Assembly: GCF_014204915.1 (NCBI RefSeq)
Contig: NZ_JACHMH010000001.1
Location: forward strand, 3,993,501 to 4,057,500
Direction of reading: 5' to 3'
DNA from: Crossiella cryophila
GTDB taxonomy: Bacteria; Actinomycetota; Actinomycetes; Mycobacteriales; Pseudonocardiaceae
DNA length: 64,000 nt
In this document: in pieces, positions 1 to 16,290 of the stretch
How positions within the stretch are numbered: the first letter of the stretch is position 1
How the letters are laid out: each line of letters starts with the position of its first letter
The notes under the pieces: generated by a model
What the model was told of the DNA's origin: nothing
The model's database searches: none
What the model saw: only the letters and a program-made list of their open reading frames with translations
Position numbers and translations under genes: made by a program

Positions 1-883
1 CGCCTGGTTCCAGCAAGTTCTCCCCGCGCAGCCGGTGCGCAACCGACAACGCGATGCGGCTGGTCGTCTCGATCCGGCCGAGGCGACCTCGACCTTCCAT
101 CGCGAGGCAGAGCAGCGGGTCCTCGTCCCGGCGAGGTGCCAGCCAGGCGTTGCGGGTGCCGGCGAGCCATTGGCTCAGGCGGGCCACTGACGGGTCAAGC
201 ACGACGACGGGAGTTCGCACGCCCGGCAGCGTCTTCATCAGCAGGCGAATCCGGAGCGCGGCGTAGCGGAGTTCCCCACCCTGCCGCCACGCACCGGACC
301 ACAAGGCGTCCTGGGCCCACACCAGCAGGTTCCCGTCGGTGTCGGTGCGGAGCGACACCTCACGGCCGTCGATCCGCCACGACGTACCAGCTAGCCGGCG
401 GGCGACCTCCCAGGTGGCGGCGTCGTAGACCCAGTTCGGCGCGTCCGGCTGGTCGCCGACGTGGTGCACCTGGGAGGCGAGCGACACCTGCTCAACCGTG
501 CTGTCCGCGAACAGCTCAGCCAACTCGCTCGGGTAGCCGAAGGTGATCTCCTCATCGGGCACGCCGAGCACGGCCTGTTCCCACAGGACCACTGCGTCGT
601 GGACGTCGCGTCGGTCGAGGGGTTTGCTGGAGACCAGGCGCTGCGGCGCGTGCTGCTTGCTCGTGGGGAACAGATTCACGCAGGCACCGCTGTAGGCGTG
701 CAGTGCGGTGGCCAGACCCGAGTACGGGAGGTTCACGTTGTGGTGGACCCGTTCCCGATAGCGGCTCCGCAGTCGCTCCCACACCTCCGCGACGTTCTCG
801 GGCAACCGGTGGACGTGAGCCGTTCCGTGCAGCACCTCGGTCAGGGGGTACGCCAGCAGGGACAGTTCTTTCTCGCCAGTCAT
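1..883 (-). CDS. PIWI-RE (Argonaute-like) protein, N-terminal part, cut by window edge
   Basis: The minus-strand frame is open from ATG at 883 to base 1 (294 residues, no stop), so the C-terminal part lies outside the window. The start MTGEKELSLLAY overlaps the helicase stop by one base (TGATG). No RNase H/PIWI motif can be seen in this part. Identity rests on position: it is the third gene of an operon whose first two products look like the REase and the DinG-like helicase of the known pPIWI-RE three-gene island, whose third member is the PIWI-RE protein. In such proteins the N-terminal region precedes MID-like and RNase H-fold domains that bind guide and target nucleic acid. The N-terminal sequence itself I could not recognise with certainty. 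Confidence 0.72.
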   Translation of the reverse strand, partial: MTGEKELSLLAYPLTEVLHGTAHVHRLPENVAEVWERLRSRYRERVHHNVNLPYSGLATALHAYSGACVNLFPTSKQHAPQRLVSSKPLDRRDVHDAVVLWEQAVLGVPDEEITFGYPSELAELFADSTVEQVSLASQVHHVGDQPDAPNWVYDAATWEVARRLAGTSWRIDGREVSLRTDTDGNLLVWAQDALWSGAWRQGGELRYAALRIRLLMKTLPGVRTPVVVLDPSVARLSQWLAGTRNAWLAPRRDEDPLLCLAMEGRGRLGRIETTSRIALSVAHRLRGENLLEPG

Positions 884-3800
884 CACTGGTTCTCCTCATG
901 ACCGATGCCCGCGAAGTCCAGCCAGGACCCAAGCGTCGAGCCGTAGGTGCGGCGCAGTTCGCGCCGTTCGACAGGGGTGAGGTTCGCGTAGTAGTACCGG
1001 AGCAGGCCGGGCATGTCGGTGCCGTACTTCGGGTCGTGGAACGCGCCATCCACCAGGAACAGCTGTACCGGTGTGCCGCCGCGCCGAGCCCGGCCCGCTA
1101 GTTGGATCATGTCGACGAGCATCCCGGCGACTGACTCGGACTTGAGTGCCCTGCTGAGCCTGCTGAACCGAGGGTCGCTGGTGAGGATATGGAACAGCCG
1201 GGCGAAGGCCCGCTTGCGCTGCTCGGCCCACACCGCCACCGGGTCGGAACTCGAGGTGTCCCTGCAGAGTGCGTGCGCGTTGACGCTGGCGAACATCTCC
1301 GCCGAGTCGGTGACTTGGGTGGGCGGTCGCACGCACACCCACACCGAGGCCAACGCTGAGCGCTGGTGACCGGGTACCAGGATGTTGAGCCCTCGGGCCA
1401 CCACGCTCAGCGGCGCGATGCACACCTTGACCTGTGGGTGACGAGCCGGCAACGACTCCAGATCGTCAACTGTCACCAGCACGACCTCAGCGGGCAGCAC
1501 GACTGGAGGCGGATGACCGTGCCGGGGGACGACGACCGCCACCCAGCCTGGATCTGGGACCTGGCCTGCGATCCCGGCCCCGAGCAGCGCGGCGTGCCGG
1601 TAGGAGTTGCCGACCAGCATGCACCGCTCGCGGTCCCGTTCGGTGTCCGGTAGCCCTCGCAGGTGCAGGTCGAGTTGCTCCCACAACGACTTACCGAGCG
1701 CGAGGATCGCTGCCGCCTTCCCGGACTCGGCGCGGCCCCCGATCCTGATGGTCTGGAATTGCGCGTCCAAGGCGTGGCCCGGCAGGGTGGTGAAGGCCCC
1801 GGGGGTCGCGTCGGTCATCGCATAGGTGATGCCTGCCCGGATGTGCTCGCGTGCGGCACCGGGGAAGTACGCCGTGGCGGACAGGCCCAGCACCACGCGT
1901 TGCACACCGGCGGCAGCCAGCGCGACGGTGCCGCCCAGTTGGGCGATGGTGGTGTGCGGATCGCCCCCGACGGCCTGTACAGACAGGTTCCCGCCAGGTC
2001 GGGGGTCTTCGACCCGGTCGACCCGGAACCCGAACAGCAGATAGCCCAGAGGGCCGTACGGGATCGCCTGGTGCTGAGCCACGGTTCCCAGTTGCTCGGC
2101 GAGGGCGCGGGCCGCGGGCATCTCCGTCCCCGGCGCGGCGACGGCGAAGGTGAGGCGGGTCAGCGCCTGGTGCAGTGCTCCCAGCCAGGTGCGCACCAGC
2201 AGGGCGTTGGCCACCTCCCGGCGATCCTCCTCCACCGGGACGTGCCTGGCGAGCACTCCGTGTAGGCGGTGCCGGACCTCCTTGATCTGGTCCTGGCCGT
2301 TGTCGTTGCTGACCGCCGATGCCAGCAGGTTTGCGACCGCGCGCAGCCACCGCGGCAGCTCGGCGCCACCGGTCCCGCCAACGTCTGGGAACAGCGTGTT
2401 GAACTGGTGGTAGACCTCGGCCGGCACGGCCTCGTCGGGGCCGTCCTCGGGGCTGTCGTCAACCTTGAACAGGTGCTTCAGCAGCATCCGGTCCCGGGAA
2501 CCCGGCAGGTGCCAGCCTGAATCCACACCGACGGCGGCCGACTTGCGTGGACCGGGAGCAGTCGGGTTCGAGTCCCCCAGCCACAGGTCGCCTTCCAAAA
2601 CGTAGTTCAGGAACTGGTCGGCCAGGAACCTGGTGCGGGTCAGCGGTGGCACGACCGCGCGGTCTTCGGCAGGGAGCAGCATGGCCCGCTCACCGTCCAA
2701 CCGGACCAGGGGCAGATCGACAGGGGCGCCGCTGGCCGCGAGCCGGAGCTGCCGGGCACCGGCGTCGAACATGTTGCTCTGCAACAGGTCCACCTCGTCC
2801 ACCAGCAGCACCGCACACCGGCGCAGCAGGAACTCCTGCACCGGCAGCCGGTTCAGCTCGACGCCGTCGACCCGCACCGGGACCGGGACGGTGCCGTGGA
2901 CGAAGTTGTGGTGGTTGGTGGTGATGATGTCGGCACCAGCCGCCAACCGCAGGCCGTGATGGCGGCCGCAGACCGCCAAGTGCGGGCAGGCATGGCGGGG
3001 GGTGGGCTGCTGTTTGCGCCCTCGCCCAGGCTGCTCAACCGCTGCCCGCAGCCCGGTGCACGGTTCGTCCGGGGCCACGGGTTTCGGCCCGTCGACCACC
3101 AAAGGTGCGAGCGCGCAGCCGTAGGCCAACGCGTCGAACCTGTCCCACTGCCCGCGTTCGGCCGCCTGCTCCGCCTTCTCAGCAAGACGCCGGGGCGAGA
3201 CCAAAGCGGTGCAGCGCAGGGACGAACCGAGCGCCAGCAGATCCGCTGTGATCTTGTCTGCGAGTTCCACTGCTTCGCTGACGGTGCCGACCACGATCGT
3301 GACCGGGAGACCGCTCCGGGCCAAGTGCAGTGCGAGGAGTCCGATGAGGACGGACTTGCCGACCCCGGTCGGGGCGTTGAGCAGACGGATCCCGCCTGCG
3401 CGCAGCAGGAGTTCGTGCACCACGACCTCCTGGTCGTCGCGCAGTCCGGCGAGGAGCTGTCGGAGCACATCATCCCGCCACGGCTCGTGACCGCGGCGCT
3501 GTGCGATGTCGCGGGCCAGCAACCGCAAGTCTTCCGGTTTGACGAGCACCTCCGCCGCGGCCGGGGTCGTGTCCAGGACGATCGGGTCCACGACGGCACC
3601 CCGCACGGTCGAGGGGAGGTCCACGATGGACTCGCCGCGCCACCCGAACTTCCACCGCCCTGGGCCCGCGACGGGCAGCGGGCTCCTGCTCTGGGCGTAC
3701 TTGACCTCGGCTTCGTCAAGCAGGCGCGCGACCAGGTCGAGTGGCTGTTGGCCGTGCCGGGCCAGTACCGCCACGACTTCGTCGTCGGGGACGTCCTCGG

Positions 3801-4095
3801 GAGCCTCGTACGGGCAGTCGGAGTCCTTGCACAGCGCGCGCGCGGCCTCGGTGAATCGGCGAGGCGCCCCGACCTCGTTGGGGCGAACCCGGAGGAACCG
3901 CCCCACCAGATGCCGGATCGCCTCGGGCTGAGCGGCCCAGCCCTGCCACAGGTCGAGCCTGCCCGCGGCGACCAGTGCCGTCGCGTCGAGTGGCACGGCC
4001 GTGCGACCGTCGGGGGTGGGGAACCCGAAGAAGTGCTCGGCGAGGGCGCAGGCGATCTGGATCGCGATTCCGCTGGGTGTCGTCTGGCTGGTCAT
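883..4095 (-). CDS. DinG/XPD-like superfamily 2 helicase of the pPIWI-RE island
   Basis: A 1070-aa protein. An ATP-dependent helicase core starts near residue 230: Walker A APTGVGKS at 241-248, Walker B LVDEVD at 431-436, and a C-terminal motif VI-like IQLAGRARRGG. Cysteines at about 327, 346, 370 and 376 (the last two in HACPHLAVC) lie between motifs I and II, as in the FeS domain of DinG/XPD helicases. The first 230 residues form a separate domain that fits domain Z of the pPIWI-RE island. I chose ATG 4095 because it overlaps the upstream stop as ATGA; 72 further in-frame residues upstream are low-complexity shadow of the REase gene. It probably unwinds or remodels target DNA for the PIWI-RE partner. 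Confidence 0.82.
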   Translation of the reverse strand: MTSQTTPSGIAIQIACALAEHFFGFPTPDGRTAVPLDATALVAAGRLDLWQGWAAQPEAIRHLVGRFLRVRPNEVGAPRRFTEAARALCKDSDCPYEAPEDVPDDEVVAVLARHGQQPLDLVARLLDEAEVKYAQSRSPLPVAGPGRWKFGWRGESIVDLPSTVRGAVVDPIVLDTTPAAAEVLVKPEDLRLLARDIAQRRGHEPWRDDVLRQLLAGLRDDQEVVVHELLLRAGGIRLLNAPTGVGKSVLIGLLALHLARSGLPVTIVVGTVSEAVELADKITADLLALGSSLRCTALVSPRRLAEKAEQAAERGQWDRFDALAYGCALAPLVVDGPKPVAPDEPCTGLRAAVEQPGRGRKQQPTPRHACPHLAVCGRHHGLRLAAGADIITTNHHNFVHGTVPVPVRVDGVELNRLPVQEFLLRRCAVLLVDEVDLLQSNMFDAGARQLRLAASGAPVDLPLVRLDGERAMLLPAEDRAVVPPLTRTRFLADQFLNYVLEGDLWLGDSNPTAPGPRKSAAVGVDSGWHLPGSRDRMLLKHLFKVDDSPEDGPDEAVPAEVYHQFNTLFPDVGGTGGAELPRWLRAVANLLASAVSNDNGQDQIKEVRHRLHGVLARHVPVEEDRREVANALLVRTWLGALHQALTRLTFAVAAPGTEMPAARALAEQLGTVAQHQAIPYGPLGYLLFGFRVDRVEDPRPGGNLSVQAVGGDPHTTIAQLGGTVALAAAGVQRVVLGLSATAYFPGAAREHIRAGITYAMTDATPGAFTTLPGHALDAQFQTIRIGGRAESGKAAAILALGKSLWEQLDLHLRGLPDTERDRERCMLVGNSYRHAALLGAGIAGQVPDPGWVAVVVPRHGHPPPVVLPAEVVLVTVDDLESLPARHPQVKVCIAPLSVVARGLNILVPGHQRSALASVWVCVRPPTQVTDSAEMFASVNAHALCRDTSSSDPVAVWAEQRKRAFARLFHILTSDPRFSRLSRALKSESVAGMLVDMIQLAGRARRGGTPVQLFLVDGAFHDPKYGTDMPGLLRYYYANLTPVERRELRRTYGSTLGSWLDFAGIGHEENQ

Positions 4096-5249
4096 GCCGT
4101 CACCGCCGCGGCCTCGGCCAGCTCGCTGGTGAACTCCTTCGCCGTCATGACCCGGTACCCGGAGTCCCCGACCACGTGCCGCAGCAGGTCCAGGCTCGGA
4201 CGTTGGTGATTCGGGACGACGATGACCAGACCCGGTGCGACGGGTGGGGTGCCGCGCAACGCCTCGCCCAGCGCGACCGGGGACGCCCATGCCTTGGCGT
4301 CCACCCGCCACACCTGCCGGCCCAGCGTGATCGCGAGGTCATATCGGTCTCGGTGCGGCCACATCACCACGTCCGCCCCCAACTTGAGCGCGTGATCGCG
4401 CAGCGCGCACTCAAGCAGGCCGGGCAAGGTCACGTACCGCCAGACCACACGCGACACCGCCAGCGACTCCTTGGTGGCTGGTTTCGCGGCCACCGGCTCG
4501 GCGCGCTTGCCTGCGGGCCGCAGGACGGGTGCGCCGTCGGAACGGGCGTTGACCTCACAGGTGTAGCTCACGCCGTGGCGGGCGTGAGCCTCGCACCGGA
4601 CGTCCACGATCCGCCCGCCACCGATCACTCGCATCGGCCACCCGCAGGCTGGGCACTCGAAGAACCAACCGTGTACCTGCCGCCACGGCCACTCCGCGAC
4701 CGGCTCGTAGAACTGCGGTAGCAGCGCGTCCCAGACGCGCCGCAAGGTCCGGAGGTCGCCGACGGGCTGTTCAACCAGATGGGCGCGCAACCGGGTGTAC
4801 TCCTCCTCCGGGAGTCTGCGCAGCACCTCGTAGATCCGCCGCTCCTCCTGCTCGGCGGCAACTCGGTCCCACGGCCAGTGTTCCTCCAGGGCCGCGGATG
4901 GCACCAGGAACTCCCGGCACAGGTCCTCTGCCTCGTCGGCGAACTGGCCTCGTACGTCGAGCAGCCTCAGCTCGGCGATCCCGTGGGTATCCACGTCGGC
5001 GGGCAGCAGGTCCCCCAGGGGGCCGCGAAGCCCCGAGCGGAAGTGGGACATGGAAGGTGCTCGACCAACGGGATGCGTGGCGGCGAGCACGCCGAGGCAG
5101 CTCATCAGCACGCGGCCCTGGCGGTCCCCGCGCAGGTCGGGGTCGCCGAGCACGGCTGCTGCGAGACAGCAGGCAGTGATCGCCTGGTCGCGGCGCTGGT
5201 TGACCGGGGACCGGTTCAGCGGAACGGTTCCGTCCAGGAATTCCGCCAC
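4092..5249 (-). CDS. pPIWI-RE-associated PD-(D/E)xK nuclease with N-terminal island domain
   Basis: A 385-aa first gene of the minus-strand operon. The C-terminal third has a restriction-endonuclease-fold signature: RYDLAITLG (Asp304) followed by WRVDAKAW (Asp317, Lys319). A possible zinc pair (CPAC) lies at 199-202, with more Cys/His just after it. The N-terminal half is helical and matches no nuclease motif; by position it should be domain Y of the pPIWI-RE island. I chose GTG 5249 because AGGAGAGG sits 6-8 bases upstream; the frame is open for 46 more residues to 5387, but that segment is less GC-rich and has no ribosome site. Its stop overlaps the helicase start. The likely role is nuclease partner of the PIWI-RE complex. 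Confidence 0.78.
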   Translation of the reverse strand: MAEFLDGTVPLNRSPVNQRRDQAITACCLAAAVLGDPDLRGDRQGRVLMSCLGVLAATHPVGRAPSMSHFRSGLRGPLGDLLPADVDTHGIAELRLLDVRGQFADEAEDLCREFLVPSAALEEHWPWDRVAAEQEERRIYEVLRRLPEEEYTRLRAHLVEQPVGDLRTLRRVWDALLPQFYEPVAEWPWRQVHGWFFECPACGWPMRVIGGGRIVDVRCEAHARHGVSYTCEVNARSDGAPVLRPAGKRAEPVAAKPATKESLAVSRVVWRYVTLPGLLECALRDHALKLGADVVMWPHRDRYDLAITLGRQVWRVDAKAWASPVALGEALRGTPPVAPGLVIVVPNHQRPSLDLLRHVVGDSGYRVMTAKEFTSELAEAAAVTA

Positions 5250-5514
5250 GAATACAACCTCTCCTGGATGTCGTCCATGAACGATGTCGGCGAGTGAAGA
5301 AAATGAATTCCAGTGATCGGCGGAGTGGGGAGCTGGCCGCTTGGAATCTGCGACTGGAAGCAAACCACAGGTTGGATTCTCTTGCAAAACTTCCCGAAGT
5401 CCGGTCGCTGGACAATTTCAGGACATTTTGTGGACATTGCGATTCATGTGCCGAACCCTGCGAATCGTGTGCCTAATCTGTCGCCGACATCGAACTGATC
5501 GGGAAGGAGCGGGT
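5250..5514. promoter_or_regulatory. Divergent intergenic region between the pPIWI-RE operon and the SEFIR/caspase-helicase operon
   Basis: This 265-bp spacer is clearly less GC-rich than its flanks and must hold both promoters. It contains a 15-bp direct repeat, TGCGATTCATGTGCC at 5438-5452 and TGCGAATCGTGTGCC at 5459-5473, with 13/15 identity and a 21-bp period (two helical turns). Two GGACATT copies lie just upstream at 5421 and 5432. The repeats end about 40 bp before the SEFIR start, where a regulator could bind. A short frame at 5294-5476 ends in a cysteine-rich tail but lacks a ribosome site, and its Cys codons come from the repeats. Confidence 0.5.
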
Positions 5515-6684
5515 ATGCAGCCGGAAGGTGACATCGGCGTCCCGTTGACGCTTGTGGACAACAGTGGGCGCCGGATTGACGCTGGCCCGGAGGAGGTGGC
5601 GTTCGGCGCCGTGCACCTCGGTCGCTGGCAGGTGCACCCAGTGGCCGGGGCAGGCGCGGACTTCGTCGATCGTGCCGCCTACCTGGTAAAGATCAACTAC
5701 GATCTGCGCGTCGACCCTGGGGCTCCGGTCGTGCGCTGGTTCGAGGTCGGCTTCGCGTTGGTGGACAGCGACTCCACGATCGTCGCCGCGGTGCCGCGCG
5801 GTGCCGCCGAGCGTCAGCCGGCCGCCTCTTACGCACTCAGTCACAAGCTTGAGTTCATCCCGGTCGAGCACAGCGCCGCCCTGGTCCACATCCCGCCAAC
5901 CGAGGGCGCGGTGCACGCCTACGGCGCCTCCGGCGACTCGATCCGGTGGCTGCACGTCATGCCGGACGAGGCCGGAGTCCGACCTGGTACCTACTCGTCG
6001 TGGGTCGTGCTGCTTGCGCCCGCTGGGGCTACTGAGCAGAAATTCCGGCTGACCGCGCGCTTCGACCCGGAACTCGCCGACGGGGATGACTTCCGCCAGC
6101 TCCCGAAGTCAACGGAGTTCGCCGTATCGCTCACGAGAATCGCCCGGGCATCCGTGGTCGAGGCCGAGGAGCCGGCTGGCCCGGGAGTCGGGCGTCCCGA
6201 CGTGTCGCCGCGAGTCTTCATCTGTTACGCGCACGAGGACGAGGTGCACAAGAGGAAGGTCCGGGACTTCGCCGACCTGCTGCGCAAGAGCGGTGTGGAA
6301 CCGGTAATCGACAGGTATCAGGAGGGGGCCCGCATAGATTGGGGGCATTGGGCCCTCCACGAGATCCGGTCAGCGGATTTCGTTGCCGTCATAGCGTCGC
6401 CGACGTGCCGGGCTGTCGGCGAGGGAACCTACCGGGGCGCAGGTCGCGCCGGTATCCGCAGCGAACTCGGTGTGATCAGGAACTTGCTGCAGAAGGACGC
6501 GAAGTGGGCGAGCCACGTCCTTCCCGTCGTTCTGCCGGGTTGCTCGGTCGACGACATCCCGATGTTCCTGAGTCCAGTCACCATGGACCATTACCTGGTC
6601 GAGGCGCTCATCGAGGACGAGGTCGAGTACCTACTCAAGGCGATCCGCTCGACTCCGCCGTGGCGGGGGTGGCACCAGCGGTGA
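5515..6684 (+). CDS. SEFIR (TIR-like) domain protein with unknown N-terminal sensor-like domain
   Basis: A 389-aa protein; ATG 5515 follows GAAGGAG at a good distance, and the frame upstream is non-coding. Residues from about 235 to 360 match a SEFIR/TIR fold: strand A PRVFICYAHEDE, then a helix with HKRKVRDFADLLR, strand B GVEPVID, and IRSADFVAVIAS. In bacteria such domains act as signalling or NAD-consuming effectors in anti-phage systems. Residues 1-220 look beta-rich and I do not recognise them; they could sense or bind a partner. No membrane segment is evident. The stop overlaps the start of the caspase-helicase gene (GTGA), implying coupled translation and a joint function. Confidence 0.82.
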   Translation: MQPEGDIGVPLTLVDNSGRRIDAGPEEVAFGAVHLGRWQVHPVAGAGADFVDRAAYLVKINYDLRVDPGAPVVRWFEVGFALVDSDSTIVAAVPRGAAERQPAASYALSHKLEFIPVEHSAALVHIPPTEGAVHAYGASGDSIRWLHVMPDEAGVRPGTYSSWVVLLAPAGATEQKFRLTARFDPELADGDDFRQLPKSTEFAVSLTRIARASVVEAEEPAGPGVGRPDVSPRVFICYAHEDEVHKRKVRDFADLLRKSGVEPVIDRYQEGARIDWGHWALHEIRSADFVAVIASPTCRAVGEGTYRGAGRAGIRSELGVIRNLLQKDAKWASHVLPVVLPGCSVDDIPMFLSPVTMDHYLVEALIEDEVEYLLKAIRSTPPWRGWHQR

Positions 6685-9600
6685 GCAGTGCCTTCCACGG
6701 GCTCTTCATCGGGATCGACAACTACCGCGACCCCGCCTTCCGCCGCCTGAAGTTCGCCGGACGCGACGCCCGGGTGCTGCATGCGTTGTTCTCCGACAAT
6801 ACCGGCGGTGACTGCGTCCTCCTCCCGGACGAGGAGGCCACCAGAACCGGGGTGACCGCCGAACTGACCCGCCTCGCCGAGGTCAGCGGTGACGGCGACA
6901 TCGTCGTCGTCACCTTCTCCGGGCACGGGACGCGATCACGGGAGCTGGCGACGTACGACGCGACCCCTGGGCGGTTCGCCGAGACGGCGCTGCCGCTGAC
7001 TGAATTCGTCGACCGGGTCCGCGAGATCCGGGCTCGGTTGTTGGTCGTCGTGCTCGACAGCTGTTTCTCCGGCGGCATGCTGGCCCGGGCGTTCTTCGAG
7101 CCCGATGACGGTGCCGCGGCCAGGTCCGACGAGGTGGGTGCGTGGGACGTGCTGCGCTCGATCAGCGGCGACGGCCGGATCTTCCTCGGCGCGGCCTCAT
7201 CGGACGAGGAGGCATTCGAATCGACCCGCTACCAGCACGGCGTGCTGACCCACCACCTCCTCCAGGGGTTGATGGGAGCTGGTGGCGTCCTCGACGGCCG
7301 GGGCATGGTGCGCCTGTCGTCGTTGGTGGCGCAGCTGCTGGACCGGGTCAGCGCCGAGGAGACCGGGTCCAGACGCCGCAGACAGCGCCCCACCTTCGAG
7401 GGGACGATGCGGCTGACCCGCTTCCCGCCGCTGGTGCCAGGCAAGCGGTACACGGCGATCGGTGGCCACACCCAGCCGCCGCTCGCCAACAAGGACCTGA
7501 AGTCCCTCGTGCCCCACGGCATCCCGTCGTCAGTGGTGGAGCTATGGCGAGAGCGGTTCGGGAAGCTCAACGACGTGCAGGTCGCCGCCATCAACCACGG
7601 CGGTCTCCTGCGTGGAGAGAACGTCTTGGTCAGCGCGCCGACCGCGAGCGGGAAGACCCTCGTCGGTGAGATCGCCGCGCTGCACGCGGTGGCGCACAAC
7701 CGCAAGGCAGTCTTCCTGTTGCCGAGCCGCACCTTGGTCAACGAGCAGTACGAGCGGTTCCAGGACACGTACGGCCCGCTCGGAGTCCAGGTCCTGCGGG
7801 CGACCGGCGGGGTGCGCGATCAGGTGAGCGACCTGATTACCGGCGCCTACCAGGTCGCGGTGGTGACGTACGAGACCTTCATCGGTCTCCTCGCTGGACA
7901 CGCCCGTCTGCTGGACGGGATAGGTGTGATGGTCGTCGACGAGATCCAGTCCCTGTTGTTGCCGGACCGGGGGCCCCGGCTGGAGCTGTTGTTCACCCGG
8001 CTGCGCCGTGCCGTCAAGCGGCACCTGCCCACGCCACAGCTCGTCGGGCTCTCAGCCGTGCTCGGCGATCCAGAGGAGTTGGCCGCCTGGTTCAGCGCGG
8101 CACTGGTGCAGTTCCCCGACCGCGCTGTCCCGCTGTGCGAAGGTGTTCTCGGCCCGGACGGGACCTACCGGTACCGACGCCACGGAGGTGGGCTCGCGCC
8201 GGTGGCGAAGGCCGAACAGCAGATACTCACCACCTCTGGGCTGGTTGCCGGGGACGACCTCGCGGAACGGCTGGTCGGTGAACTCGTGGCGCAGGGGAAC
8301 CGGGTCCTGGTGTTCCGCGCCAACCGTGCCGGTGCCCGAGCCTTCGCCCGGCGGCTCGCCGACCGCTTGGGTCTGCCCGCCGCCAGTTCCGTGCTCAGCA
8401 CCCTGCCCCGGGGTGATGTCTCCCGGGTGGCAGAAGTGCTGCGCGACTGCCTCGGCAGCGGTGTGGCCTTCCACAACACCGATCTCCGCGAATCCGAGCA
8501 GCAGGCAGTGGTGCGGGGTTTTCGCGAGCCCGCAGGTGAAATCCGGGTGGTTGTGGCCACCACTACCCTCGCCCAGGGGGTGAACCTCTCAGCGGATTCG
8601 GTCGTGATCTGCGAACTGGAACACCCAGGACGACCGGGGAGGTCCTACACCTCCTCGGAGTACAAGAACATGGCGGGCCGGGCTGGGCGGAACCTCGGCC
8701 AGGACGTGCCGGGGCGGACGATCGTCGTGACCAACGGCGGCCTCGAGACCCAGCGGATCTGGCGCGACTACGTGAATGCCGAGCCTGAGCAGGCTCGCTC
8801 CGCGCTGTTGTCACCCGGTCTCGACCTGGCTAACCTCGCCCTCAACGTGCTGAAGTGCCTCGCCGACGAGCCTGGTGGAGCCGACGCGGCCGGGGTCGCC
8901 GACTTCCTGGCATGGACCTTCGCCTCCTTCCAGAGCAGCACCGCCCGTGCCGACGACCCCTTTCCACCCGACGAGGTGCGGGCAGTGGTCGGCTCGCTCC
9001 ATGAGGGCGGTTTCCTGGCCATTTCGGAGCACGGCTACCAGCTCACCACGCTCGGCGAGGTCGTGGTCCGCAGCGGCCTGCGCATCGAGTCGGCTCGCGT
9101 ACTCGTGGCCACGCTGGGGGCGGTGACGGACGTCGAGTTGACCAGGATGACCCTGATCGGCGCGGCACAACTGGTCACCGAGGTCGATGAAGTCCGCTTC
9201 ACGAAGCCATCCGCGAAGTGGCAACGCGAGTACGACGATTTCGCCCGGCAACTGCCTCGGCAAGGGGCCGCGCCCGCTGTGGCGGCTGCCCTGCTGGGAC
9301 CCCGCAGCCGGGACAGGGCCGGGAACGGGCGGGCACGCCGTGCCCTGGCCTGCCAGATGTGGTCTGCAGGCCAGCCCATCTCCAAGATCGAGACCGCGCT
9401 GACCCTCCACCTGCAATCGCAGGCAGGCGTCCGCGATCCGGGGCCCATCGCGCAGGCGGCGCAACGGACCGCCGACGTCATCCGGGCGGTCGTCGACATC
9501 GCTCGCCACCTGCACCCGGAAACCGATCTCGGTGACCTCGCCGAGACCCTTCCGTGTCGGCTCTCGGAGGGGATCGGCAAAGGGCTGGCGCACATCGCCA

Positions 9601-9821
9601 GGCACGTGGGCCGCCGTGTCGAACGCGAGGTCTACCTGAGCCTGGCCCAAGCAGGGCTCAGCGTTCCCGAGGCCATTGCCACGGCTGGCACTGAGCAGCT
9701 GCTCGACTGCGCGGATGGCGACGAGGACCTGGCCACCGCCCTGCGTGCAGCGGCTGAAGCGGCCGTGGCGGAGGCGAACCAACCCACCCTCGACGATCTG
9801 GTGGACCTACCCGAAGACTGA
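6681..9821 (+). CDS. Caspase-like protease fused to Ski2/Hel308-type helicase
   Basis: A 1046-aa protein. Residues 1-245 are a clan CD caspase-like peptidase: VVTFSGHG with His82 and VVVLDSCFSGG with Cys128 form the dyad. Residues 280-690 are a superfamily 2 helicase: Q-like FGKLNDVQ, motif I APTASGKT (319-326), Ia PSRTLVNEQ, II DEIQ (420-423; Gln replaces the usual His), III GLSAV, V VATTTLAQGVNL and VI KNMAGRAGR. The last 350 residues look helical, as in Ski2-like winged-helix/ratchet regions. I chose GTG 6681, which overlaps the SEFIR stop as GTGA; the frame stays open to 6339 only because it shadows the SEFIR gene. The inferred role is nucleic-acid sensing by the helicase that triggers proteolysis. 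Confidence 0.85.
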   Translation: MSSAFHGLFIGIDNYRDPAFRRLKFAGRDARVLHALFSDNTGGDCVLLPDEEATRTGVTAELTRLAEVSGDGDIVVVTFSGHGTRSRELATYDATPGRFAETALPLTEFVDRVREIRARLLVVVLDSCFSGGMLARAFFEPDDGAAARSDEVGAWDVLRSISGDGRIFLGAASSDEEAFESTRYQHGVLTHHLLQGLMGAGGVLDGRGMVRLSSLVAQLLDRVSAEETGSRRRRQRPTFEGTMRLTRFPPLVPGKRYTAIGGHTQPPLANKDLKSLVPHGIPSSVVELWRERFGKLNDVQVAAINHGGLLRGENVLVSAPTASGKTLVGEIAALHAVAHNRKAVFLLPSRTLVNEQYERFQDTYGPLGVQVLRATGGVRDQVSDLITGAYQVAVVTYETFIGLLAGHARLLDGIGVMVVDEIQSLLLPDRGPRLELLFTRLRRAVKRHLPTPQLVGLSAVLGDPEELAAWFSAALVQFPDRAVPLCEGVLGPDGTYRYRRHGGGLAPVAKAEQQILTTSGLVAGDDLAERLVGELVAQGNRVLVFRANRAGARAFARRLADRLGLPAASSVLSTLPRGDVSRVAEVLRDCLGSGVAFHNTDLRESEQQAVVRGFREPAGEIRVVVATTTLAQGVNLSADSVVICELEHPGRPGRSYTSSEYKNMAGRAGRNLGQDVPGRTIVVTNGGLETQRIWRDYVNAEPEQARSALLSPGLDLANLALNVLKCLADEPGGADAAGVADFLAWTFASFQSSTARADDPFPPDEVRAVVGSLHEGGFLAISEHGYQLTTLGEVVVRSGLRIESARVLVATLGAVTDVELTRMTLIGAAQLVTEVDEVRFTKPSAKWQREYDDFARQLPRQGAAPAVAAALLGPRSRDRAGNGRARRALACQMWSAGQPISKIETALTLHLQSQAGVRDPGPIAQAAQRTADVIRAVVDIARHLHPETDLGDLAETLPCRLSEGIGKGLAHIARHVGRRVEREVYLSLAQAGLSVPEAIATAGTEQLLDCADGDEDLATALRAAAEAAVAEANQPTLDDLVDLPED

Positions 9822-9948: not shown

Positions 9949-10959
9949 TCACGGTGCCCGCCGGGCGCCCGGGGTGGCTTCGCTCTCGGCGAGGAACTCC
10001 TCTCCCCACACAACGCCGAACGACCGGTTGGGCGTCAGGTCGGTGAACGTGAAGTGGACCTCGCCGCAGGGGTCGGCCTTGACGAGTTCGCGCGGCGCGA
10101 ACTCGTCTTCTACTTCGGATGGAGGAAGATCGGTGATCCGCCAGATCCGGTCGGGCACGCGCTCGGGATCGAACTTGACGTGCAGCTCGAACAGCTCGCA
10201 CGGAAAGGTCGGCGTGCACACGTAGAACGGCCGCATCAAGCGCTGTTCAGTGAAGTGGAATTGCAGGAAGAATTCGTGCTCCGCGTGACGGGGCAGCTTG
10301 TGTGGCAACCGCAACACGTAACCCAGCCTCGCGCTGGACCGCCGCTGCCGCACCTGGAGTGTGCCACCGTGGAGGACCTCGATGCCGGTGCTGTCGGGTG
10401 GGATTCCTCCGGCCCAACCTGGCGGCAGGGGCACGGACACCTCGAGTTCGACTTCGTCGACCTCCTCGGCTGAGACGACGAAGCGCCGCCTCTCATACAC
10501 CTGGGGAAGTCCCTGGTCGAGCACTACGGAGGTGTGTAGCGACGTCGTGCGCCAGGGCGCTCCGGGCCGCCGCCGTTCGCGGCGCGCCACGAGCATCAGC
10601 TTCGCCAACGCCTCCAGCGCCTTGTCGATGTGCCTCTTCGCGGTTTTCGGATCTCGGTCGATCAGGTTGGCGACGAGTTCCAACCTTTGGGTGAAGTTGG
10701 CCGTGGCCGCACTCTCGTCAGTGAGCCCGTAGGCCATCAACACCGCTTGACGTTGCTCATCGGGCAGGTGCCTGGCCACGTCCGTGAGTTCGTGCCGCAG
10801 AGCTTCCCTTAGCTGGAGCGGTTTGCCGTCGACGGCCAACCCCAGGGTTCTCCGCAGCAGCGGGCCGGTGACATCCGCCAGGTTCGATGAGTCCAACGCG
10901 CGCCGTCGTCTCAGAAGTTTGAGTTCATCGACGAGCTGGCTCGCCTCGTTCTCGACCAT
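9949..10959 (-). CDS. Unknown 336-aa protein
   Basis: I do not recognise the family. ATG 10959 is preceded by a strong AGGAGGAG site. The N-terminal 125 residues are helical and basic, with RDPKTAKRHIDKALEALA resembling a recognition-helix segment of HTH or sigma region 4-like proteins. The remainder (about 140-336) is beta-rich, with several Trp, Phe and His residues and no catalytic motif. Third-position GC bias supports real coding. It is convergent with the caspase-helicase gene and divergent from the HTH/NB-ARC/TPR gene, so a regulatory or accessory role in this island is possible but only an inference. Confidence 0.75.
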   Translation of the reverse strand: MVENEASQLVDELKLLRRRRALDSSNLADVTGPLLRRTLGLAVDGKPLQLREALRHELTDVARHLPDEQRQAVLMAYGLTDESAATANFTQRLELVANLIDRDPKTAKRHIDKALEALAKLMLVARRERRRPGAPWRTTSLHTSVVLDQGLPQVYERRRFVVSAEEVDEVELEVSVPLPPGWAGGIPPDSTGIEVLHGGTLQVRQRRSSARLGYVLRLPHKLPRHAEHEFFLQFHFTEQRLMRPFYVCTPTFPCELFELHVKFDPERVPDRIWRITDLPPSEVEDEFAPRELVKADPCGEVHFTFTDLTPNRSFGVVWGEEFLAESEATPGARRAP

Positions 10960-11371
10960 GCAGTAGCTCCTCCTGTGGATGCGATTCTAGCCGCAGTTCG
11001 CTTGGCATCCACGACCGTTTCCTGTCGAGCGAGGAAACGGAAACCCGTTGCCGCCGTGCTGGGAATCGCGAGATCGTGTTCTTGCGGAAGACAGAGGGAA
11101 TGTGAAGGAAAACCACCTGGTGTGGTGTCTGGAAGAAAATGGGAGACGAACGCTCGTGTGGGGTGCTCCCGACTTCTTCCCGAGCTGCGGGGTGGTGTCC
11201 TGAGGGGAGGAGGTGGACGGAGATGCACACCCACGTCGTGTTCGTCATCGCGCAGTACCTGTTCGTCATGGTCGGCTGAGCTGGTGCCAGGTTCGGCGGG
11301 TGGCGCCCCTGTCGGCCTCGTGAGTCGTGGGTCTGAGCCCGTGGCCGTCCCGGAACGGGCATGATCCGGGC
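10960..11371. other. Divergent intergenic region
   Basis: These 412 bp separate two outward-facing genes and should contain their promoters. An inverted repeat GTTTCC (11027-11032) / GGAAAC (11033-11042 area) lies in the first half. The middle (11085-11150) is relatively A-rich. One short plus-strand reading frame is listed separately. I see no other gene. Confidence 0.4.
11139..11279 (+). CDS. Possible small ORF (46 aa, or 18 aa from an internal ATG)
   Basis: An ATG at 11139 opens 46 codons. An in-frame internal ATG at 11223 follows a purine-rich GGGGAGGAGGTGGACGGAG stretch, the best ribosome-binding sequence in the area, and would give the hydrophobic 18-residue peptide MHTHVVFVIAQYLFVMVG. 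It lies 92 bp upstream of the HTH/NB-ARC/TPR gene on the same strand. It could be a leader or signal peptide for that regulator, or chance. Confidence 0.25.
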   Translation: MGDERSCGVLPTSSRAAGWCPEGRRWTEMHTHVVFVIAQYLFVMVG

Positions 11372-13582
11372 ATGGACTCGCACAAGCATGAGTTCGGTGG
11401 CGAACTGCGCAGGCGACGTGAACGCGCAGGGTTTTCCCTGGGGGCCTTCGCCAAACTGATCCACTACAGCAAGAGCCACCTCAGCAAGGTGGAAACCGGC
11501 TGTGCTGCAGGCAACCGGGAATTCGCCCAGAAGTGCGACATCGCCTTGGAAGCGAACGGGGCGCTGCTGGCCCTCATGCGCGACAGACCGCACCGGCGAG
11601 CCGGTACCCGCACAGCAGCCGTGACCGGCCTGCCGCCGGTGACCCGGCACTTCACCGGTCGCGAACGGGAACGGAAAGCCATCGTCGCGGTTCTCCGTGA
11701 CATGAGCACGGAGGGCGTGTGCGTGTTGAGCGGCATGGCTGGCGTGGGGAAGACCGCGCTGGCGTTGCGCAGCGCCTGGGACGTGGCTGACCTCTTCCCT
11801 GACGGCTGCCTCTTCCTCGACTTGGATGGCCAGGCGCTGGCCGGCGCGCAAGCCACCGCACACGACATCCTCGACCTGCTGCTCCGATTGCTCGGCGTGC
11901 CCGGCGAGCAGATCCCGCCGCAGTTTGACGCCCGGGCGAACCTCTACCGCAGCCGACTGCGCGGCAAGAGGCTCCTGGTGGTGCTGGACAACGCGGCAGG
12001 TACCGCTCAAGTTGCCCCACTCATACCTGCGGAACCGAGGTGCAGTCTGATGATCACCAGTCGCAACAAGCTCAATGCGCTCGATGACGCGGTTCGCGTC
12101 AACGTCGACGTGCTGCCCCATGCCGAAGCCGTGACGCTGTTCCGTGCGATCGCTGGGGATCGCGTCAGCGCCGCACCTGATGAGTTGGTCGCCCGAGTTG
12201 TGCAGCTGTGCGGCCGGCTGCCCCTCGCGATCCGCATCGCGGGGTCTCGGTTGCGTACGGGCGCCAACGCGTCGTTGCAGGACTTCGAGCGGCGCCTGGC
12301 GGAGGAGACCTCCAGACTGGGCGTCCTCGACGACGGGGAGCGCAGTGTCGCGGCCGCGTTCGCCCTGTCATACCGGGAACTCCCGCTGGACCAGGCCCGG
12401 GTCTTCAGACTGCTGGCCCTGCATCCGGGACGCGTCATCGAGACCGACGACATCGCGGCGCTCGCCGATGTCGACCTCGAACAGGCCACCGTTCTGGCCG
12501 ACCGCATTGGCGACACGCACCTCGTGACCCACACGGCGGATGGTCACGTGATCCTGCACGACCTCATCCGCGACTTCGCGCGCGCCCTCCCTGAGGTCGA
12601 GGAGCAGGGCGCGGCGGTTCGCCGGCTGCTCGACCACAACCTGCAGCTCACCAGGACGAGTGACGAATTCCTTGCGCCGCACCGCTACCGGGTGCAGCTC
12701 GACCTTCCGGATCTGCCGGTGTCCTCCACGGCGTTGCCGGACCGTGAGAGCGCTCTGGCCTGGTTCGACCGGCGCTGGCCCACCCTGGTCGGCCTGTGCG
12801 GGTTGGCCGCCACCCAACGGCTCCACCGCCACTGCTGGCAGCTCGCTTTTCTGCTGCGCGACTACTTCTTCCAGTCGAAGCTGTGGGACCAGTGGATCGG
12901 AACTCACCGCACGGCTGCTGCGGCAGCCCGTGTGGCAGGTGACAACCGTGCCTTGGCTCTGACGTTGAACAACCTGGGCATCGCGTACGCCGACCGCGGT
13001 GAGTTGGAGCAGGCGACCGGCCACTACGAGGAGGCGTCGGACCTCTTCCGCGAGGCCGGGGACGAGCACGGTCTGATCAACGCCGCCTCAAACATGGCCT
13101 GGGCAGCGTTGTATCTGGGCGACCACGAGCGCGCGTGGCATGAGCTGTGGACCGCCGGGGCCGCGTACCGGCGCCTTGGGAACAAACGCAACGCGGCGAT
13201 CGCGTTGCGCGGGGTCTCCCTGGCGGAGGTGGAACTCGGCCGGCACGACGACGCCGTCGCACACGCGGACGAATCGTACGACCGGTTCCGGGAGCTGGAC
13301 CTCCCCCTGGACATGACCATGTCGCTCAACAGCTCAGCGTGGGCACACTTCAGAGCGGATCAGCACGAACTCGCCGCCGAGCGGTACCGGCTGGCCGCGG
13401 CGTCGGCCAGCGACTGCGGCAGCCCATACGAACACGCCCGCGCGCTCATCGGGCTTGGCAACGTCCACGCCGCCGCGGGGCGTTCCGCCGAGGCACAGGC
13501 GGAGTGGACGCGAGCCGACGAATTGCACCCGCCCCTGGATCAGAGAATGGTCGGGGAAGCACGTGTACGGGCTGGCGACTGA
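11372..13582 (+). CDS. XRE-HTH / NB-ARC / TPR regulator (STAND ATPase)
   Basis: A 736-aa protein with three parts. Residues 6-60 form an XRE-type helix-turn-helix (LRRRRERAGFSLGAFAKLI, then HLSKVETG). Residues 90-400 form an NB-ARC-like ATPase with GMAGVGKT at 121-128, LLVVLDNA as Walker B and a GLPLA-type element (CGRLPLAIRIAG). Residues 500-730 are TPR-like helical repeats (ALTLNNLGIAYADRGELEQA). Such STAND proteins couple ligand sensing to ATP-driven oligomerisation, here probably coupled to DNA binding. The upstream in-frame extension to 11327 lacks support. It is convergent with a similar protein 10 bp downstream. Confidence 0.88.
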   Translation: MDSHKHEFGGELRRRRERAGFSLGAFAKLIHYSKSHLSKVETGCAAGNREFAQKCDIALEANGALLALMRDRPHRRAGTRTAAVTGLPPVTRHFTGRERERKAIVAVLRDMSTEGVCVLSGMAGVGKTALALRSAWDVADLFPDGCLFLDLDGQALAGAQATAHDILDLLLRLLGVPGEQIPPQFDARANLYRSRLRGKRLLVVLDNAAGTAQVAPLIPAEPRCSLMITSRNKLNALDDAVRVNVDVLPHAEAVTLFRAIAGDRVSAAPDELVARVVQLCGRLPLAIRIAGSRLRTGANASLQDFERRLAEETSRLGVLDDGERSVAAAFALSYRELPLDQARVFRLLALHPGRVIETDDIAALADVDLEQATVLADRIGDTHLVTHTADGHVILHDLIRDFARALPEVEEQGAAVRRLLDHNLQLTRTSDEFLAPHRYRVQLDLPDLPVSSTALPDRESALAWFDRRWPTLVGLCGLAATQRLHRHCWQLAFLLRDYFFQSKLWDQWIGTHRTAAAAARVAGDNRALALTLNNLGIAYADRGELEQATGHYEEASDLFREAGDEHGLINAASNMAWAALYLGDHERAWHELWTAGAAYRRLGNKRNAAIALRGVSLAEVELGRHDDAVAHADESYDRFRELDLPLDMTMSLNSSAWAHFRADQHELAAERYRLAAASASDCGSPYEHARALIGLGNVHAAAGRSAEAQAEWTRADELHPPLDQRMVGEARVRAGD

Positions 13583-13592
13583 CCGGAATCCG

Positions 13593-15677
13593 TCAGGGGC
13601 GCAGCCTGGTCAGTTCCGCCGCCACTTCCTCCCCCTCGAACGCGGACAACCGGGTGAACAGCTCCAACGCGGCCTCGAACTCGGTCACGGCCTGTTCGTG
13701 GTCGCCGAACAGCACGGCGACCCGCGCCCGGCCGTGATGGGCGCGGGCCTCCTCGAACGCGCTGCCCTGCGCGCGCGCCAGGGTGATCGCCTCCTCGTGC
13801 GCCTGGTCGGCCGCTCGCAGGTCGCCGGACTGGTGGTGTGTCTCGCCCAGGCAGTTGAGCGCCATCGCCATGTTTAGCAACGACGAGCGCTCCTCAAATA
13901 TCGCCATCGCCTCGTGGATGTGACGGATCGCGATCTCGTACCTGCCCAATGCCGTCTCGAAGATCGCTATGCTGCGCAAGGTGATCCCGGCGTTCGTGCG
14001 TGCGCCACAGCGGTGGTAGTTCCCCAGCGCCCGGGTCACCTGCTCCAGCGCACCTTCGTGGTCCCCTCTCCTGTGCAGGACCCACGCGCAGTTACCCAGG
14101 GCGTTGCCTGCGCCGCGCAGGTCGCCCAAGTCGTCGAAGATTTGCAGTGCGGCCCAGCAGTGGCGTTCAGCAGCCTCCACCGATCCCCGTTCCAGCAACG
14201 CCATGCTGAGGTTGTTACGCGTTGATGCCTCGGCCTTCCGGTCCTTCAGGCGCACAGTTGCGGTGAGGGCGAGTTCGTGCGTGCGGATCCAGGCATCCCA
14301 GTCCTTGGTGAGGAAGAAGTAGCCGCGCATCGTGTACGCCAGCTGCCAGCTCCGAACGTCCAAGCGGTAGTCCTCGAGTTGGAGCAACCCGGTGAGGACC
14401 TCCTGCTCAGCAACCATCCAAGCCAGCGCCGCGTCCTGGTCGGGGAAGGACGGTACTTCGCGGGGCAGTCCCTCCAGGGGGATGCGGAACCGGTTGGGCG
14501 TCAACAACCGGTCGGCCTGGTCCGTACCATGCAGATAGTGGTCGAACAAGCGTGTGGTGGCCTCGAACCGCTCGTCCCCGTCGTCTCGCTCCACGAGTTC
14601 CGACGCGTATAGGCGGAGGAGGTCGTGCATGCCTATCCGGTGGTTCGCGGTCGCTGTCACCAGTTGTGCCTCGGCGAGCGCCTCCAACAGGCGATCGGCC
14701 ACCGCCAGGGAGACACCGGCCAACGCGGCGAGCGCCTGCTTCGGCGCGGTCGCCCCGGGAACCCGGCCCAGCAGGCGGAACATCCTCGCCTGGTGCGCTG
14801 GAAGCCGGTGATAGGACCACGAGAACACCGTGCGTACTGCTGTGCGTGGATCACCGACATCCAGCGAGTCGAGTCGCCGGTGCTCGTCGATCAGCGTCGC
14901 CGCCACCTCGGCGAGTGGTCGTGCCGGGACGGACCGCACGAGGCCAGCGACGACGCGCAGGGCCAGTGGCAGATGCGTGCAGTGCCGCGCCAACGTGGCG
15001 ACGGTGTGAGGCTCCTCCTCGCCCTGTGGACCCAGGAGGGTGCGTAGCAGAGCGAGTGCCTCCTCGGTGCCGAGTACGTCTACGGGTACAGGTGTGGCCC
15101 CCTGTGTCACCACCAGGCCGGTCAATGGGCTGCGGCTCGTCACGATGACGCTTGACCCCGGGCCCGGCAGCAGGGGACGAACCTGCTCGGCGTCCCGCGC
15201 GTTGTCGAGCAGGACGAGCACCTGCCGCCCGGCCACCAGTGATCGAAAGGTGGATGCGCGCTGCCCCGTGTCTGTTGGCATCCATTCCGGGGCCATACCA
15301 AGCGCCCTCAGGAAACCACCCAGCACCTCACCTGGTGGCAACGGCTCGTCTGGTCCATACCCCCGCAGGTCCACGTACAACTGGCCGCCGGGAAAGCGCT
15401 CAGCGGCCGCTGACGCCCATGAGACCGCGAGGGCGGTCTTCCCCACTCCGCCCATGCCCGACAACACCACTACCGGCACGGTATCGGGCGGGGTATTGCC
15501 CATCGCCTCGTCGATGGTGGCGAGCAGCGGCTCGCGCCCGGTGAACCCACGCGCCAGCGCAGGTAACTGTCGGGGCACGGATCTCGCCTCGTCAGTGGCG
15601 TGGATGTGGACACCTCCCACGATCGTCGCCGCCTGCACGACATTGCCAGTCACACCCGACATCGCGTTGTTGTCCAT
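13593..15677 (-). CDS. NB-ARC / TPR STAND protein without DNA-binding domain
   Basis: A 694-aa protein. ATG 15677 follows GGAGGGCGTG; the start MDNNAMSGVTGNVVQA with GGVHIH is the usual N-terminus of actinobacterial NB-ARC/TPR proteins, so the longer open frame to 15881 is rejected. P-loop GMGGVGKT is at 74-81, with VLVLLDNARDAEQ (Walker B) and HLPLALRVVAGL following. Residues 440-690 are TPR repeats (STRNNLSMALLERGSVEAAE). No HTH or effector domain is evident, so it may signal through partners. It resembles the NB-ARC/TPR part of the convergent neighbour closely enough to suggest a shared origin. Confidence 0.85.
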   Translation of the reverse strand: MDNNAMSGVTGNVVQAATIVGGVHIHATDEARSVPRQLPALARGFTGREPLLATIDEAMGNTPPDTVPVVVLSGMGGVGKTALAVSWASAAAERFPGGQLYVDLRGYGPDEPLPPGEVLGGFLRALGMAPEWMPTDTGQRASTFRSLVAGRQVLVLLDNARDAEQVRPLLPGPGSSVIVTSRSPLTGLVVTQGATPVPVDVLGTEEALALLRTLLGPQGEEEPHTVATLARHCTHLPLALRVVAGLVRSVPARPLAEVAATLIDEHRRLDSLDVGDPRTAVRTVFSWSYHRLPAHQARMFRLLGRVPGATAPKQALAALAGVSLAVADRLLEALAEAQLVTATANHRIGMHDLLRLYASELVERDDGDERFEATTRLFDHYLHGTDQADRLLTPNRFRIPLEGLPREVPSFPDQDAALAWMVAEQEVLTGLLQLEDYRLDVRSWQLAYTMRGYFFLTKDWDAWIRTHELALTATVRLKDRKAEASTRNNLSMALLERGSVEAAERHCWAALQIFDDLGDLRGAGNALGNCAWVLHRRGDHEGALEQVTRALGNYHRCGARTNAGITLRSIAIFETALGRYEIAIRHIHEAMAIFEERSSLLNMAMALNCLGETHHQSGDLRAADQAHEEAITLARAQGSAFEEARAHHGRARVAVLFGDHEQAVTEFEAALELFTRLSAFEGEEVAAELTRLRP

Positions 15678-15849
15678 CACGCCCTCCATAGGGTTGGGAA
15701 TGTTCAGGGCGGCGGGGTGCGGCTGATCACGACTCGTCGTTGGGCGGTCCGCGAAGGAGCGGCCACCCCGCCGTCTGGAACGCCGGCTTGGTGGTTGAGA
15801 TCTGTGCGCATCACGACTGACCATGGCGGTGCCTGCGGGCGCTCGCCGC

Positions 15850-16290
15850 CCGCAGTAGGGACCCGGCAACGAACTGGGCAAGTGAGGTCAACCAACTCCG
15901 TGAACTGCTTGACTCGATCACTGCTGTGATGGAGTGGGCCCTCGTCTGCTCCACCCACTTCCCGCTCATCCTGCTGTTCAGCGTCCAGGCGTTGGTGGCA
16001 TCCGCCGGGCCAGACAAGACGAGGTGGTCGAGCACCTGCGTGAGCGTGATGCCTGACCCGAAGGCGGCATCTCACCGCGGCAGCCAAGACCTCTGCGGCC
16101 GCACGCGAGTCGACCCTCGTCCTGCCCGGGCAAGCGTTCACCGCTCCGCTGCTCGCCCACCTGATCCGCAAGTTGCGCCCCGAGCGACGCCACCACGGGC
16201 TGCGCAGTGCCTCCTCTGTACAGCTGCTCTGTCGGCCATCAAAGTCACCAACAGACCTTTCCTGCGCTGCTACTTCGGGAAACGCGAGAA
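15850..16290 (+). pseudogene. Possible decayed gene, fragments in shifting frames
   Basis: Protein-like segments occur in different plus-strand frames. One near 15867-15990 reads PATNWASEVNQLRELL and continues to a hydrophobic segment with PLILLFSVQALV. Another near 16080-16215 contains LVLPGQAFTAPLLAHLIRK. No single frame joins them. I recognise neither fragment. It could be the residue of a frameshifted gene or chance coding-like composition. Confidence 0.25.

Follow-up and report, generated by a model that had tools for sequence, protein, structure and literature searches.

A SEFIR protein and a caspase-helicase fusion encoded beside a pPIWI-RE island

The window, a 64,000-nucleotide stretch of the Crossiella cryophila genome, contains a pair of overlapping genes and, divergent from them, a complete pPIWI-RE three-gene island, most of whose pPIWI gene lies outside the window (Table 1). 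The first gene of the pair encodes an N-terminal domain (NTD) joined to a SEFIR/TIR-like domain, and the second, which we call CH, encodes a caspase-like protease fused to a Hel308-type helicase. An earlier note made from this DNA had described a SEFIR protein coupled through GTGA to a 1046-residue caspase-helicase fusion. Both the coupling and the assignment of the three parts, including His82 and Cys128 of the caspase-like domain, were confirmed.

Table 1. Coordinates of the genes, domains and related modules discussed in the text. Positions are those of the window unless a locus or residue number is given.
Feature	Position	Strand	Remarks
pPIWI-RE gene, 5' part	1..886	-	868 aa; L046:8283-10886 plus stop; rest left of window
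DinG-type helicase gene	883..4311	-	longest ORF 1142 aa; start near 4095 likelier
pPIWI-RE-associated REase gene	4092..5387	-	longest ORF 431 aa; start near 5249 likelier
NTD-SEFIR gene	5515..6684	+	389 aa; SEFIR/TIR-like match
NTD-SEFIR domains	residues ~1-210; 219-229; ~231-383		N-terminal beta-sandwich; poorly modelled linker; SEFIR/TIR-like
GTGA start/stop overlap, SEFIR/CH	6681..6684	+
CH (caspase-Hel308 fusion) gene	6681..9821	+	1046 aa
CH domains	residues 8-244; 131-151; ~266-1035		caspase-like (His82, Cys128); poorly modelled loop; Hel308-type helicase
c18 gene	9949..10959	-	336 aa, without Pfam family (weak hits only)
c7 gene	11327..13582	+	HTH-NB-ARC-TPR STAND protein
Second NB-ARC-TPR STAND gene	13593..15881	-	adjoins c7, which has the HTH
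CBASS-type gene set	L046:3475-8103	+	TIR-SAVED, SMODS nucleotidyltransferase, ThiF/E1-like, JAB
TPR-CHAT and NTD-cyclase-like module	L201:8021-12371; L202:6108-10413
Divergent CHAT/NTD-SEFIR pairs	L208:8190-10696; L205:9576-12094		CHAT 64% identical between both

The NTD-SEFIR protein was assigned to the SEFIR family by both sequence and fold, and SEFIR and TIR_2 were the only Pfam families that it matched (E up to 1). The structural neighbours of the SEFIR domain include the TIR domains of SPARTA and SARM1. Glu317 is kept in all 11 aligned SEFIRs; a profile alignment pairs it with a Glu in the bacterial protein 5y8f and with a Lys in human Act1/TRAF3IP2. This residue is the likely NADase position, and its conservation and its alignment with the 5y8f Glu make an NADase role plausible. 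By eye, no conserved cleavage site was seen in the alignment of the linker between the two domains.

The Hel308 fold is present along the length of the helicase part of CH, which we class as Hel308-like because its score against the NCBIfam Hel308 equivalog (181 bits) is below the cut-off of 1200. By the same kind of measure the caspase-like domain is a relative, not a member, of the EACC1-associated type (85 bits against NF047832, curated cut-off 140). Among the matches listed from PADLOC-DB 2023, HamB-type helicase and caspase models cover CH part by part, the best HamB matches being to helicase segments. These searches gave helicase and caspase parts only, with no ligand-binding module. His82, Cys128 and Lys325 are kept across the CH alignment, and His82 and Cys128 are nearly invariant across at least 63 long fusions. 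A single row of 63 (L097:9998-13021) has Ser in place of the catalytic Cys128.

The three genes of the island, REase, DinG and pPIWI (hereafter the triad), follow one another in that order on the same strand, their ends overlapping or close together, and 127 bases separate the REase from the SEFIR start when the longest ORFs are used. The REase matches pPIWI_RE_REase (2e-19) and, under its cut-off, pPIWI_RE_Y (8.6e-4); its D...DxK motif is kept in the window protein and the D..DxK motif in 12 of 12 proteins compared. DinG matches PADLOC PprDinG at 4.1e-105. All three Pfam domains of pPIWI score over their cut-offs (RNaseH_pPIWI_RE 2.5e-36, pPIWI_RE_X 1e-26, MID 3.3e-8).

A comparison of residue columns in 37 pPIWI rows identified candidate conserved Arg and Glu columns, invariant in all 14 CH-linked rows, which we infer to be the residues of Burroughs et al. 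(2013). The inferred position of the first RNase H Asp is non-acidic in the same 14 rows, a state that may be consistent with sensing more than with slicing. Since all 23 other pPIWI proteins compared are also non-acidic there, loss of the acidic residue is not tied to CH.

Recurrence and gene order

Named genomes were scanned for CH with two peptide patterns, and the best 80 of 135 loci encoding a relative were kept. Of these, 63 contain an ORF of 800-1130 aa with a match of at least 700 residues and were aligned with the window to give 64 long CH loci; the remaining 17 are short, split or partial. CH spans more than ten phyla, mostly without the triad (at least 63 long fusions): Actinomycetota, Planctomycetota, Myxococcota, Cyanobacteriota, Pseudomonadota, Chloroflexota, Acidobacteriota, Gemmatimonadota, Verrucomicrobiota, Bacteroidota, Nitrospirota, Bacillota and candidate phyla. 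Genes in the relatives were called by a simple script that can miss or misplace genes (e.g. L209), and the clustering of neighbour genes left out eleven loci (L109, L119-L127, L045).

The triad adjoins CH in 12 of the 64 long loci (the window's own, L048-L055, L059, L084 and L072), and an NTD-SEFIR gene lies within up to 10 kb of CH in 11 (own, L048-L055, L059 and L065); both are present in 10. No triad was found within up to 10 kb on each side of CH in 52 of the 64, and no SEFIR gene in 53. Because 16 of the 63 loci span less than 10 kb upstream, the counts of triads and SEFIR genes near CH are lower bounds. Genome searches added three triad-CH loci (G064, G110 and G830, the last two with NTD-SEFIR), bringing the total to 15 in four actinobacterial families, 12 of them with a SEFIR gene.

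Two gene orders were found. SEFIR lies directly upstream of CH in the window, L048-L051 (L048 being from Lentzea aerocolonigenes and L051 from Kibdelosporangium persicum) and G830; in L052-L055, L059 and G110 it is found at the triad's far end. In the second order a PDDEXK nuclease gene usually separates the REase from CH. This gene (cluster c10) is found in L038 (the same locus as G064), L052-L055 and L084, none was called in L059, and G110 has a gene of similar size. Throughout the 12 triad loci found by clustering, pPIWI, DinG and REase occupy positions -4, -3 and -2 relative to CH. SEFIR is absent from the genomes of two triad-CH loci (G051/L084 and G126/L072) and from the vicinity of CH in a third (G064). 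A triad with a PDDEXK gene and neither CH nor SEFIR was observed at L158:9525-18281 (G074), near what appears by eye to be a recombinase gene.

The direct SEFIR-CH pair recurs in seven loci, and in all seven the genes overlap by ATGA, GTGA or TTGA. The interpretation in the earlier note was supported in part: the pair recurs, but a unit made of these two genes alone is not supported and is too narrow, since in this clade the conserved unit includes the triad, which accompanies CH in the 15 loci above. The earlier note had named rare adjacency of the homologues as a refuting result, and across the CH family the two genes are rarely neighbours (SEFIR within up to 10 kb on each side in 11 of 64 loci, directly upstream in 6).

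Trees and genome-wide rates

In a CH tree made by a quick method, to which G064, G110 and G210 were added and from which G830 was left out, the 14 triad-linked rows fall on one side of a branch (support 99) from the other labelled groups, with the unlabelled L065 inside; L072, L065 and L084 have long branches. The triad-linked side covers Pseudonocardiaceae, Streptomycetaceae, Thermomonosporaceae and Streptosporangiaceae. The pPIWI tree, which omits three duplicate loci and includes PF13032 rows only where locus DNA was included, places CH-linked pPIWI in two groups with L072 elsewhere and unlinked pPIWI between them, requiring 3 changes.

Of 200 family genomes, 12 encode CH, either whole or broken, 36 have a pPIWI RNaseH match and 52 a SEFIR; 16 other matched genomes had a helicase or short stretch only. 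For eight of the 12 CH genes, a pPIWI RNaseH match is no more than 12 kb away, against a chance expectation of ~7e-4 per CH gene (46 pPIWI rows, assumed 7.8-Mb genomes; kinship ignored). Since 28 of the 36 genomes with pPIWI lack CH next to it, and given the pPIWI tree, CH is an arm that some pPIWI-RE islands have acquired and not a fixed part of them. A phylum-wide sample of 396 genomes held one whole CH fusion besides that of the window.

The N-terminal domain recurs beside CHAT proteases

A profile of the NTD gave 13 matches, 12 of them near full length, in 11 of the 200 family genomes. Five lie directly upstream of CH and one in the same island as CH (G110). Four are next to a CHAT protease gene (a second copy in G110, G085, G140 and G189). 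Two have neither CH nor CHAT nearby: the neighbours in G078 are TPR genes, and those in G114 are an HTH-NB-ARC-TPR gene and a relative of c18. In G085 and the second G110 copy, a TPR-CHAT gene is followed by the NTD joined to a C-terminal half without a SEFIR match. By eye this half looks cyclase-like, and the one example scanned (L201) had no Pfam match. The TPR-CHAT and NTD-cyclase-like pair is a possible sister module. The arrangement in G140 and G189 is of another kind: NTD-SEFIR and a shorter CHAT gene point away from each other, with no CH.

The four genomes with NTD-CHAT neighbours have 42 CHAT genes in total. Of the six NTD places that lack CH, four are next to CHAT, compared with ~0.7% expected (within 3 kb), a binomial probability of 3e-8 that ignores kinship and comes from a test chosen after the data were seen. 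Only two of 394 genomes sampled across the class have the NTD, the window's own and G045, and an order-wide sample of 397 genomes gave seven matches to almost the full length of the two-domain profile. The recurrence of the NTD beside CHAT, twice with another C-terminal domain, suggests that it is a protease-controlled carrier. The same recurrence may also lend indirect support to the idea that NTD-SEFIR is a protease substrate.

Comparison with known systems

Burroughs et al. (2013; PMC3702460) predicted that pPIWI-RE islands, which in the parts of that paper used here occur as a lone gene or a three-gene operon, are RNA-dependent restriction systems, and proposed DNA-RNA hybrids as their target. 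The window triad has every part in the described order (REase, DinG, pPIWI), and for the PDDEXK gene found in the second gene order, the one c10 member tested matches PADLOC PprPDDEXK (3.1e-88). SEFIR and CH are additional here: those parts of the paper describe neither SEFIR nor a caspase-helicase as pPIWI-RE components, the word caspase is absent from its main text, and the PADLOC matches listed include no Ppr model for SEFIR or CH.

The EACC1-caspase system, as far as the part of Kaur et al. (2020; PMC7159879) consulted describes it, likewise has two genes, the second encoding a caspase domain with a variable C-terminal domain; up to 50 fused domains are mentioned. However, its first gene encodes a one-helix membrane protein instead of NTD-SEFIR, and helicases are not named there. 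Neither EACC1 (Pfam, E up to 1) nor a single membrane helix (highest 19-residue hydropathy 1.37) was found in the 5' gene of our pair. Hachiman systems (HamAB and HamMAB) also combine a related helicase with an effector, and in HamMAB, according to the portion of PMC12799240 considered, a protease controlled by a DNA-sensing helicase complex switches on a further enzyme. That protease is trypsin-like and fused to HamA, with a nuclease as output, whereas the caspase-like domain here is fused to the helicase itself. The PADLOC matches listed for seven window proteins (for CH, the best 25 of 45 families) contain no HamA model. Canu caspase-nuclease loci share a caspase-family protease that controls a co-encoded effector, but in the same portion of PMC12799240 they have no helicase fusion, SEFIR or pPIWI-RE.

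SEFIR and Argonaute systems offer further comparisons. bSEFIR is a single-gene system. Its PADLOC model matches NTD-SEFIR (E=8.1e-16, the best stretch covering 67 of 412 model positions), and the two share a bacterial SEFIR domain; here, however, the SEFIR gene overlaps CH. SPARTA consists of a short prokaryotic Argonaute with TIR-APAZ. Our locus differs in having no APAZ match (Pfam gave SEFIR and TIR_2 only), in having a PIWI protein of another family, pPIWI-RE, and in its added protease-helicase.

The earlier note knew of no described system with exactly this pair, and no model of the fusion or of the pair is present among the PADLOC-DB 2023 matches listed. Nor was a description of CH, the pair or the combination with the triad found in open-access papers (preprints excluded), which is weak evidence of novelty: searches for a caspase with Hel308 in defence, or for pPIWI with a caspase, returned nothing, a search for SEFIR, caspase and helicase in an antiphage setting returned one general review, and pPIWI-RE by name returned only Burroughs et al. 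(2013). The combination of triad, SEFIR and CH may be one larger, so far undescribed anti-virus system.

Proposed mechanism and alternatives

The triad, CH and SEFIR are linked in the loci described above. Our leading interpretation, held tentatively and at somewhat less than even confidence, is that SEFIR-CH serves an extended pPIWI-RE immune system as its output arm: the triad would sense and cut, CH would be a DNA-gated protease and NTD-SEFIR would provide the TIR-like output. It builds on the observed gene content, the intact catalytic residues, the tight junction and the presence of the NTD beside a second kind of caspase-superfamily protease. pPIWI-RE, DinG and REase would recognise invading nucleic acid, probably DNA-RNA hybrids, and open or cut it. 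The Hel308-type motor of CH would engage the resulting single-stranded or forked DNA, and this engagement or the ATP cycle could switch on the fused caspase-like protease. The protease might then cut the flexible linker between NTD and SEFIR, or dock on the NTD, and the TIR-like SEFIR domain would assemble, consume NAD+ and stop the infected cell. In favour of this reading are the recurrence and fixed order of the triad beside CH, the closeness of CH to pPIWI in the family genomes, the grouping of the triad-linked CH rows and the conserved residues. Against it weigh the many CH loci with no triad within up to 10 kb, SEFIR-CH without a nearby triad at L065, the triad with PDDEXK but no CH in G074, the three triad-CH genomes with no SEFIR near CH, the separate places of CH-linked pPIWI in the pPIWI tree and the lack of a conserved cleavage site visible by eye in the linker. 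HamMAB is, by analogy and as far as the portion of PMC12799240 used here describes it, the closest tested precedent for such a DNA-gated protease cascade. A more specific version, possible though rather doubtful, is that the pPIWI-RE surveillance complex drives a motor caspase that releases the TIR-like NADase from a carrier, the carrier being a general plug for caspase and CHAT proteases; that SEFIR or cyclase-like outputs are mounted on one plug domain is a proposal we hold with the same reserve.

A self-sufficient two-gene system, in which the helicase senses abnormal DNA in the manner of Hachiman and switches on both caspase and SEFIR, is a serious but unlikely alternative, as is its corollary that the triad simply often shares a defence island with the pair. 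At L065, SEFIR-CH occurs with no triad within up to 10 kb on each side, and the sole pPIWI match of that genome (G045) lies on a different contig, where blastp found neither a DinG nor a REase relative around it. CH is found in many other contexts, and a Hachiman DNA-sensing helicase complex can gate a protease, as the portion of PMC12799240 considered here reports. A CBASS-type gene set belongs to the window's island as well, which marks that island as a general defence island. Against this, the place and order of the triad beside CH are constant in 12 of 12 clustered loci from four families, and SEFIR lies at the far triad end in six loci; together these disfavour the view of a loose island.

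We consider it quite improbable that the locus works like a type IV Thoeris system, with SEFIR detecting infection and making a nucleotide signal that turns on the caspase domain of CH, and hold equally low the accompanying idea that the helicase acts as an additional sensor or guides the protease to targets bound to DNA. A Thoeris system that pairs a TIR signal with a caspase-like effector has reportedly been published and would be a precedent. A TIR or SEFIR gene recurs near CH (G064, G110, a Bosea plasmid), and SEFIR keeps its likely catalytic Glu. However, a ligand-binding module is missing from CH, in which only helicase and caspase parts were found, and where another domain stands in for SEFIR the NTD still accompanies a caspase-superfamily protease, as would be expected of a protease partner more than of a signal maker. 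More improbable still is an executioner caspase with many cell proteins as its targets, set off when the motor encounters invading DNA, with SEFIR as a parallel killing arm that is not its substrate. The 53 of 64 long CH loci without a SEFIR gene within up to 10 kb agree with it, and there the protease probably has other targets or partners; yet the tight SEFIR-CH junction and the presence of the NTD beside two kinds of caspase-superfamily protease both point to direct partnership.

With the pPIWI-RE output-arm interpretation, a conserved protease and TIR-like output arm makes pPIWI-RE function testable as an abortive-infection pathway, and the carrier domain suggests how bacteria match caspase-superfamily proteases to targets. 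If the more specific version is true, recognition directed by a guide or a hybrid would be joined with a DNA-gated caspase and a death enzyme of the TIR type in one bacterial pathway. Judged by its sequence relatives in more than ten phyla and its several kinds of partner, CH looks like a reusable DNA-gated protease missed by current annotation; 12 plasmid records annotate it only as a DEAD/DEAH or superfamily II helicase.

Other neighbours of CH

Relatives of c18, for which neither PADLOC nor NCBIfam gave a match, lie near CH in three further triad loci (L048, L052, L059), twice near NTD-SEFIR in L209 and twice near a CH remnant in L164; c18 is possibly an accessory of the locus. c7 is a possible accessory or regulator. 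Its relatives lie near eight further triad or SEFIR-CH loci, set against a chance expectation of ~12% per locus, since the window's own genome has 62 such matches. The CBASS-type set lies directly beyond the pPIWI gene, left of the window, and relatives of three of its genes (59-65% identity) are near CH in G110 (L039). A TIR gene is convergent with CH in G064 and G110, and two TIR genes are near CH on the Bosea plasmid.

Elsewhere, an Mrr-like nuclease gene (cluster c11; 1.4e-14 and 4.5e-11 against Mrr_cat for the two members tested) adjoins CH in six loci, e.g. L058:9400-9966, pairing a nuclease with the protease-helicase, and a 405-aa protein without an assigned family (c20) is encoded upstream of CH in three. 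The CH remnant of G022 (L164:4016-5101; 362 aa, 64% identical over the match) has c18 and NB-ARC genes close by and, ~10 kb away, a broken SEFIR match, and the locus reads as a decayed island. Upstream of CH in nine loci, c5 and c6 encode a winged-helix protein (AbiEi at 0.003, below cut-off, for the one member tested) and a 298-aa protein without an assigned family. The row of winged-helix/AbiEi-like protein, 298-aa protein and CH, seen at L086:7999-13018 and eight similar loci in Pseudomonadota and Verrucomicrobiota, is a different CH system.
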